Source: Owenia fusiformis
Taxonomy: Eukaryota > Annelida > Polychaeta > Sabellida > Oweniidae
Assembly: GCA_903813345.2 (NCBI GenBank)
Contig: CAIIXF020000009.1
Location: 35,705,759 to 35,769,758 of the forward strand
Direction of reading: 5' to 3'
DNA length: 64,000 bases
Positions within the stretch are counted from its first letter, which is position 1. Each line of letters begins with the position of its first letter. Shown here piece by piece: positions 40,801 to 43,800 of the stretch. The notes beneath the pieces are model-generated. The model was not told the DNA's origin. It ran no database searches and was given only the letters and a program-made list of their open reading frames with translations. The translations under genes and the position numbers were made by a program.

Positions 40801-43800
40801 CAATACATAACTCTTATTGGTAAGATGAAATACTTCACAATAATGAAACTGAACCAAAGAGAACATAATATGAATACTAAATAAACTCAAAAGAATTTTT
40901 GTTGAAATTGATTTGAGAGCCGCACCTTTAGGTCGTGGAAAGGAACGTTTTTTCTCCACAAGTATCCAACCAAATGCGATTGTAGTTAGAAGCGAAACTA
41001 TTATTAGTCCCAAGAGGATCATTTCTCGCATGGATAAGGGTTTAGCAGTGAATATAGTATGTGTTGTGATTGGCTGCAGTGCGATAATTGCTATGGTAAC
41101 AAGAAAAGCAATTGTAAAACACATTTAGTTAATTTAGTTATGCTTGGAGTAGAATCTATTTCTCAGTTTCGCCCAAATCAAACCATAAGAGTTAAACTTT
41201 ATGAATTCATGTCGTATGATGTCCCTATTTTGTTTTATTTGTTTTAATGTTAGAAGTAGGCCATGAACAAGAAAACTTTATCAAGAGACACAAATGTAAC
41301 ACATATGTAGTAGATGTAGATATGTAGTCAAACACACTTTAAAATTAGTAATCTGGTTCAGGATAACAAGACAAGGGACACGATGGGATATTTAGACATA
41401 AAAGGAGGGCTTTTGATACTAAAAATGGTTCTCTAATTGTCACCAAATCACCGGTTTTGACCAGGTAGTCTTGATAAATTTTCATAAAATAATCAATTCC
41501 CTCCTTTGCCCAAGAGTTGAGAAAATGTTCAATAGGTGGCTCTCACTTCAAAGGTTCTAACATTTTTGCAACATAACATATGCAATATCATTGGCAAAAT
41601 TTTGATGAAATTTAGAAAGAATGAGATGATTTAGCTTTTGTATTCTTTCTTATCAAATAAAACTAATGAAAACTAAACAAGGTCGTCCCAAGTGTCAAAA
41701 TATTACTATATTGTGTCACTACAAATTGTATCATGTTCGCAAAAAAACTTTTCGATTGTGAGAGTTATCAAGAGGAATGAATTCTCTTTGGCCAGAAATA
41801 TGACCTAAACAGCCCACCGTGTATAACATTACATAACATTCTACCCACCAGATACATTACTTACAAGTATTGCCCTTTTCACTTCTATCTACTTGACTTT
41901 TCTCTGATTCTGGCATCAATAAATAATGCAAATCAATTACAAATATAAAAAAAAAAATATAACAAATGAAGAAGTAGAAGCAAAGACAGTCTGCACTGAT
42001 AGAGAAAACCAATACACCAATCCACCACGACTACAGTTTAGCAAGTTTTGTCAAAAACAGAACTTGGAATGGATTGCAAAAGGTAAAATTAAGCATGAAG
42101 CAAAATAAGATAATCTATGTGGTGGCCATTTTGAAAAGAGACCCCTTAGAAAAGGTTACATACTTCTAGTGTCTTCATCCTCCAGGGTTGTGCTGCTGTC
42201 TGTGGACTCCTTGATCCCATCATTCTTCTTTACCATCAAACTCTTGCCTGCAATACCAACCATGTTAACAATTGCTTGTCAAACATATTAATATCAAAAC
42301 AGATAATGAAGGTCCTGTAGTCCTATAGAGATAATACCCACAAACTTTAGGAACTCTCCAATGATTTGGACTTTACAGATTGCTTATGCGCTGAAATACA
42401 ACAAATCACACTCATTTCAATAAGAAGCACATTTTTAAGCTGAAAAGATTTTTCCAAATTACTTCATTATCCTTTTTTGCTTTTTATCTTTTTTATATTT
42501 TGATTTCCATACAATGCAATTATTATGATTTAGTCAAATTTAAAGTTGCTTTTAAATTTTTTTACCTACTCCCAAAATGTCGGTTTTCACCAATGTATAC
42601 ACCTACATTGTTCCTCATAATAAAATATATAAATGAACCAAAAACTCACTCCTTCTAATATGGAAAAATCTTAACATTAAAAATTGCTAATTAAATAACT
42701 GAAACTCATGAAAATACATTACATATTGCTAATAGCAATTATAAGCAATTTGGAGCATATTCAATCCATAAATAATTACAATCTTGAATTGAGGTCCTAT
42801 TTTCAACAGCCATGCTGAAATAAATGTACAAATCAGTTCCTAAAATACTACCATGTAAACTGGCAGAGATTTCAACTTGCATGCTTTTTATTTTAAACTC
42901 AGCAACAATGATACATCAACTGCGATATTGGAAAACAAAGCGAGGAAGTAAAATCTAAATGAGATTATTCATTTTATAATTTGATCTAAGAGCGAAGTAT
43001 TCCAAGTAGCAGCCCAGAGACAGAAATAGCAGGATAAAAATGCCAGCAAGAAAAGCATAAAAAGGAGTGGTATCGATATGGAGAACTGAATTCAACAATG
43101 TTTTTCTCTTAAACCAATCATTGAAAACATTCTGTAAAAATCACAGTATTTTATGTAATGTTGACTGATTGACAACAATTTAATACGAAAATTATTTAGA
43201 AATATTTTATATAACTGTTCTTGTTAACATTTTTTGTTTTTTAGTGCAATTGTTTTTGCTCCTTTCTACCAATTCTTGAGAATGAAATAAAATGTCTTTC
43301 CAAACCTTGTTGGAACAAAATTGCATATACAACATGTTTTTAGACCTCTCAATATTATAGTAATACAAAGGAATTTTTGGTTGATTTTAAAAAAGTATTC
43401 AAAAAATTAAAACAAACCCCCCCCCCCAAATAGATAAAAATCAAGATAAACCTTTTATTTCATTAACAAGATACTTTTTAAAATCAACCAAAATTTCCTT
43501 TGTACACTTACAATATTGAGAGACCTTAACATGTTGTGTTTATGTCGTTTTGTTCCAATGAGGTTCGTAAAGATGTTTCATTTCACTCTGGAAACGTGAT
43601 ACCAAGAACAAAACAAGTGTTTGATGTGTTTTCTAAAACAATATAGATGAAAGTATATATATATTTTTCAAATTATATTGTTACCATTCAAAAGATGACT
43701 ATTAAATTGACAATGTGTTAAATTTTTAGATTTTTTTTATGACTGGTTTAAGAGAAATGTGTGTTCAAAAAGTTCTCCATATCGATACCACTCCTTTGGA

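Follow-up and report, generated by a model that had tools for sequence, protein, structure and literature searches.

The window analysed here is a 64,000-nt stretch of the Owenia fusiformis genome (498 Mb in 525 contigs, with contigs C1 to C12 measuring 32 to 62 Mb). A CaMKII gene lies on the minus strand of the window, with the last of its hub exons terminating at 34762. The hub (association-domain) family has three matches in the whole genome, all inside the window, so one hub-encoding gene is found at that sensitivity. The exons that frame the candidate described below are as follows.

42164-42247, minus strand: CaMKII linker exon encoding 27 residues (84 nt, phase 1/1)
41865-41909, minus strand: probable linker cassette exon (45 nt, phase 1/1), called on splice-site consensus and frame only
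38447-38522, minus strand: hub exon 1
37968-38062, minus strand: hub exon 2
35128-35242, minus strand: hub exon 3
34762-34882, minus strand: last hub exon, with the stop codon

The intron of interest is bounded by the linker exon 42247-42164, or by the probable cassette 41909-41865, and by the first hub exon 38522-38447. It also holds nested inverted repeats at 39039-39180 (25-nt arms around 38-nt arms), which resemble a small palindromic element, and a 29-nt tandem repeat at 40197-40329 (4.6 copies, 98% match) just downstream of the candidate exon. Elsewhere in the gene, a long linker exon at 44314-44490 (minus strand) is Q- and S/P-rich. Minisatellite arrays with 23/92/138-nt and 37-nt units lie inside CaMKII introns at 59479-60484 and 63163-63419, and their repetition is probably the reason for the long open frames there.

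An UNC5-like netrin receptor gene occupies the plus strand from about 3995 to 26264, with Pfam matches to thrombospondin type 1, UPA and death domains. Its assignment comes from Pfam for some stretches and was made by eye for the remainder, including the membrane-spanning exon at 19624-19749. Between the two genes, two overlapping minus-strand open frames of 96 and 139 codons (28811-29373) have no Pfam match, and a candidate exon scoring 12.3 at 28814-28880 uses another frame. A CaMKII hub intron contains, on the opposite strand, an uninterrupted 504-codon frame (36186-37697, plus strand). Its FUT8-like match is weak and falls below the Pfam cut-off (E 0.0021); the frame is perhaps an intronless fucosyltransferase-like gene.

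A preliminary description of the window had placed, in the intron directly upstream of the hub exons, an ATG-started minus-strand frame that encodes one or two hydrophobic helices, ends in a 10-residue tail and runs into an in-phase GT. We find this frame exactly as it was described. It sits within a 129-codon open frame, is preceded by out-of-frame ATGs at 41186, 41210 and 41264, and has two Kyte-Doolittle peaks in a 19-residue window, 2.27 over residues 1-19 and 2.44 over residues 36-54. The frame ends AAG/GTGCGG with one base over, which fits the phase of the acceptor at 38522, and joining the two yields the predicted 14-residue junction peptide. It had further been suggested that this junction restores the residue order of vertebrate hubs; the junction V carries no evidential weight, since any exon ending in G yields V at that position. 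The ordinary junction from 42164 to the hub reads DTR-M-RKQE. The stretch is also richer in CpG than its surroundings, as had been proposed, with 6 CpG in 199 nt and an observed/expected ratio of 0.87 versus 0.39 for the window. An equal or higher CpG count occurs in 5.2% of 199-nt windows, and GC and CpG are both elevated across about 200 nt at the candidate.

The acceptor-like sequence that had been noted inside the frame as a weakness is a usable acceptor ending directly before 41090, which makes 41090-40926 the better-defined candidate. The features of this stretch are listed here.

40926-41124, minus strand: ATG-started frame as first described, 66 codons plus one base, ATG context AACTAAATGT
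41091-41110, minus strand: acceptor TGCTTTTCTTGTTACCATAG (then CAATTA), AG-free for 50 nt upstream, with a branch-point-like TTAAC whose A is at -39
40926-41090, minus strand: candidate exon, 165 nt, phase 1/1, encoding one strong hydrophobic segment and then 10 residues
41029-41031, minus strand: first ATG of the candidate exon, in frame
40920-40928, minus strand: donor AAG/GTGCGG
40874-41128, plus strand: opposite-strand open frame over the same stretch, 84 codons

An AG-free run of 50 nt is reached by 7% of the 6480 AGs in the window, and the median run in 18 reference acceptors is 40.5. Lying between linker and hub exons, in phase 1/1 and with a usable acceptor and donor, the candidate has the layout of a cassette exon. 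Because the 84-nt and 45-nt linker exons are likewise phase 1/1, it could follow either of them in a transcript or be read by itself. A transcript starting shortly before 41031, or one spliced to 41090, would have the ATG at 41031 as its first in the candidate exon, in frame with the hub, and would encode 170 residues made up of an N-terminal anchor and the entire association domain; a second ATG at 41022 has, in our judgement, the better start context. The joined frame of 170 residues contains a complete CaMKII_AD domain (PF08332 positions 1-128 of 128, E 1.9e-59), and after splicing its hydrophobic N-terminal segment (2.44) is in frame with the hub, as in an alphaKAP-type protein.

The donor had been called poor, but it is not clearly so when set against the genes of the window. 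As references we used 11 CaMKII and 8 UNC5-like donors and 17 or 18 acceptors from our own reading of the two genes, leaving out an exon near 56.6 kb whose donor was not located; several of the UNC5-like sites were drawn from the candidate ranking and are therefore not independent of it. GTGCGG falls in the middle of this range: as the matrices become less generic and more local, it equals or outscores 10, 6, 5 and then 4 of the 19 references. With the generic animal matrix (10 of 19) it belongs to the top 0.4% of GT sites, and with a matrix resting almost wholly on the 19 local donors (4 of 19) to the top 8%. A C at position +4 is seen in none of the 19.

We then ranked non-overlapping candidate exons of 60-400 nt on both strands by the sum of acceptor, donor and codon scores. 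The candidate 41090-40926 scores 15.7 and ranks tenth in the window with the generic matrix. Matrices weighted to sites of the window (19 donors, 17 acceptors) lower it to ranks 15 and 22, and under the matrix that gives rank 22 a variant beginning at 41073 edges ahead of the 41090 version (8.9 versus 8.6). The other eleven of the generic top 12 all lie within UNC5-like, CaMKII or nested-frame coding sequence. Three of these eleven are nevertheless misread, two in the wrong frame (34750-34882 and 8983-9101) and one on the wrong strand (36983-37254). The score therefore detects coding-like composition better than it detects the correct frame.

Codon usage was assessed with a model built on 65 of 73 loci, the 8 with internal stops being excluded. 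Under equal priors this model gives 0.23 to the candidate frame, 0.75 to the opposite-strand frame and 0.0013 to plain intron. A value of at least 0.23 is reached by 9 of 65 intronic open frames, and 19% of 273 true coding chunks receive less than 0.23 for their own frame. The codon score against intron is equalled by one of 65 intronic open frames of at least 54 codons. Per codon it comes to 0.139 bits for the last 52 codons of the frame, 0.016 for the 14 codons with which the frame as first described opens (the exon includes 3 of these) and -0.137 past the donor. Synonymous codon choice alone is undistinctive, with 6 of 23 intronic open frames of at least 66 codons scoring as high. The codon model is unable to pick the strand. 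On the plus strand no exon scores above 10.8, compared with 15.7 for the candidate, and the donor of that best exon scores 0.0.

Both the candidate peptide and its DNA occur once in their own genome, in a DNA search that skips very common words, and the opposite-strand peptide has no second match there. Against Pfam and NCBIfam the candidate peptide has no convincing relative, the best matches, which stay below cut-off, being UPF0715 (E 1.9) and a SecE model (E 0.041); the PDB gives no match. Pattern searches returned 7 matches in viral contigs and 115 in prokaryote contigs, none of which was confirmed. An 11-residue stretch of the peptide may resemble the proline hinge found in the N-termini of cytochrome P450s. 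A mitochondrial insert was considered and set aside, translation with the mitochondrial code giving only below-cut-off matches (DUF1345, E 0.0039; Vma12, E 0.15). A repeat or transposon copy was likewise rejected on the single genome match, very common words being skipped, and on finding no direct repeat over the stretch within the intron.

We compared the candidate with simulated and real sequence. Of 2000 simulated introns, 712 contain an ATG frame of at least 30 codons with a hydrophobic segment (mean of at least 1.6) and any in-phase GT, and so do 9 of 20 overlapping slices taken from the other introns of this gene; the candidate as first framed is not beyond chance. Donor quality changes this picture. 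When a donor at least as good is added, 2, 5, 28 or 86 of the 2000 simulated introns qualify, depending on the matrix, and when hydropathy of at least 2.4 is added as well, 0, 0, 2 or 3 do. None of the 20 intron slices contains a hydrophobic segment with an in-phase donor scoring above 0. Open frames in AT-rich sequence are often hydrophobic, 24 of 85 reaching 1.6 and 2 of 85 reaching the candidate's 2.44.

For the combined score the nulls disagree, and all three are weighed here. Markov simulation of the same intron and strand makes the candidate rare: depending on the matrix, the expected number is 0.0013, 0.0055 or 0.041 when any phase is allowed and 0.0003, 0.0007 or 0.0065 when phase 1/1 is required. 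In reversed real sequence it is less rare. The reversed window yields six candidates scoring at least 15.7 in 128,000 strand-bases. Judged by position, coding sequence accounts for four of them, a tandem repeat for another and plain intron (47141-47300) for the sixth; a single one is phase 1/1, and it is located in the nested frame. About one candidate of this score per window is therefore unremarkable. The reversed flanks of 73 loci give 22 candidates in 438,000 strand-bases (3 in phase 1/1). For reversed coding sequence the figure is 43 in 101,622 (4 in phase 1/1). Forward flanks of 28 of 30 receptor loci, counted as at most the best candidate per flank and strand, hold 3 candidates of at least the target score in 144,906 strand-bases, one of them in phase 1/1; two of the three belong to loci with 3′ flanks that have a 331-nt stretch in common (94% identity). 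In these two receptor genes (L050 and L053) both flanks carry an open frame starting LRKR(R/P)KTGSIWLWSGNMS, and the common stretch is perhaps a repeat. Scaled to one strand of the 3.34-kb intron, the flank and window controls predict about 0.07 to 0.17 candidates irrespective of phase and about 0.02 to 0.03 that are phase 1/1.

We tentatively favour the reading of 41090-40926 as a real alternative coding exon of the CaMKII gene, at somewhat less than an even chance, and regard it as a defensible exon candidate rather than a demonstrated exon. A chance intronic pseudo-exon is an almost equally likely competitor: a slightly GC-richer part of an AT-rich intron would happen to be open and hydrophobic with an in-phase GT, and would be functionless and never spliced. 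The cheapness of the basic pattern in simulated introns and intron slices speaks for such an accident, as do the equal or higher scores in reversed sequence, the absence of a codon preference for the claimed strand and, in our judgement, a low prior for readings of this kind. It has to contend with the joint rarity of score and phase in the simulated introns and with the small number of phase-1/1 candidates that the real-sequence controls give per 3.34 kb. Alternatively, the stretch could belong to another gene, as a plus-strand exon, as an exon of a nested minus-strand gene or as the relic of an inserted coding fragment. This is improbable. It would accommodate the raised CpG and GC over about 200 nt, the better codon usage of the plus-strand frame, which is open from an acceptor before 40932 to a stop at 41126-41128, and the precedent of an unrelated frame nested in the neighbouring intron. 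The lower plus-strand exon score with its null donor argues against it, together with the single genome match for the peptide of either strand and for the DNA, and none of the other 44 exon candidates listed lies in the candidate's intron.

If the exon is a real one, it could serve as a cassette within the full-length kinase. Splicing would then insert it between 38522 and either 42164 or 41865 and lengthen the linker by 55 residues, a hydrophobic segment among them. The acceptor and the 1/1 phase of the neighbouring linker exons fit such a use, and alternative inserts of 20-81 residues are described in the excerpted text on planthopper CaMKII (PMC6627886). A single membrane span at this place would, however, put kinase and hub on opposite sides of the membrane, and the basic residues after the span favour an N-terminal anchor. 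We accordingly give the cassette a minor share of the case for a real exon and consider it improbable taken by itself; the topology favours kinase-less use, although acceptor and phase also suit a cassette.

The use we favour for a real exon is in a kinase-less, alphaKAP-like product, which takes the larger share of that case and is by itself somewhat unlikely. The original proposal of an alphaKAP equivalent holds up in most exon features (open frame, acceptor, mid-range donor and phase) and in the anchor that splicing would place on a complete hub; it draws no help from codon usage, which does not favour the claimed strand, or from the real-sequence controls, which give comparable candidates. 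In such a product, exon 41090-40926 would be spliced straight to the first hub exon at 38522, so placing a membrane-spanning segment and then a basic stretch ahead of the association domain. Its transcript could come from an internal promoter or carry an upstream untranslated exon, and translation from 41031 or 41022 would give a kinase-less protein of about 170 residues. Under the positive-inside rule, basic residues flanking a membrane segment stay cytosolic, which suggests that the segment would insert with its basic end and the hub in the cytosol. There the hub would be expected to co-assemble with full-length CaMKII subunits and so tether them to the membrane. All of these steps, from transcription to tethering, are predicted from the DNA.

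If this holds, the membrane anchor of alphaKAP would have a counterpart on another CaMKII hub, differently placed, in an invertebrate in which one hub-encoding gene was found. Kinase-less hub subunits would then look like a more general means of placing CaMKII, and there would be a simple system in which to test this. The broader proposition, that an invertebrate CaMKII holds a gene within a gene for a membrane-anchored kinase-less hub, independent of alphaKAP or predating it, is unlikely in our estimation; were it true, CaMKII tethering through decoy hub subunits would be a recurrent or ancient animal device. Among the open-licence papers listed for alphaKAP, none has a title concerning an invertebrate CaMKII anchor, and the same literature yielded no paper that combines invertebrate CaMKII with alternative splicing, a transmembrane segment and the hub domain; these results say little about print overall.

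alphaKAP has a hydrophobic N-terminal anchor, and linker residues separate this anchor from the hub. The candidate anchor exon, in contrast, joins the hub directly. The likeness lies in a complete association domain without a kinase domain in the joined frame; a real exon would give a protein acting in the same way, with no claim to membership. As excerpts of PMC5882894 describe it, alphaKAP is a kinase-less protein with a complete association domain, made from an alternative promoter within vertebrate CAMK2A, and is thought to direct CaMKII to the sarcoplasmic reticulum membrane. Passages of that paper and of PMC9913510 report that this kinase-less subunit joins CaMKII holoenzymes and holds them at the membrane, and the latter mentions a lipid tail in connection with alphaKAP. 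Rice planthoppers offer the other comparison, their CaMKII having alternatively spliced inserts in the variable region according to the excerpted text (PMC6627886). It resembles what is proposed for the Owenia gene in carrying extra alternative exons in that region and differs in that the one insert quoted in those excerpts is hydrophilic and the isoforms are described there as retaining the catalytic domain.
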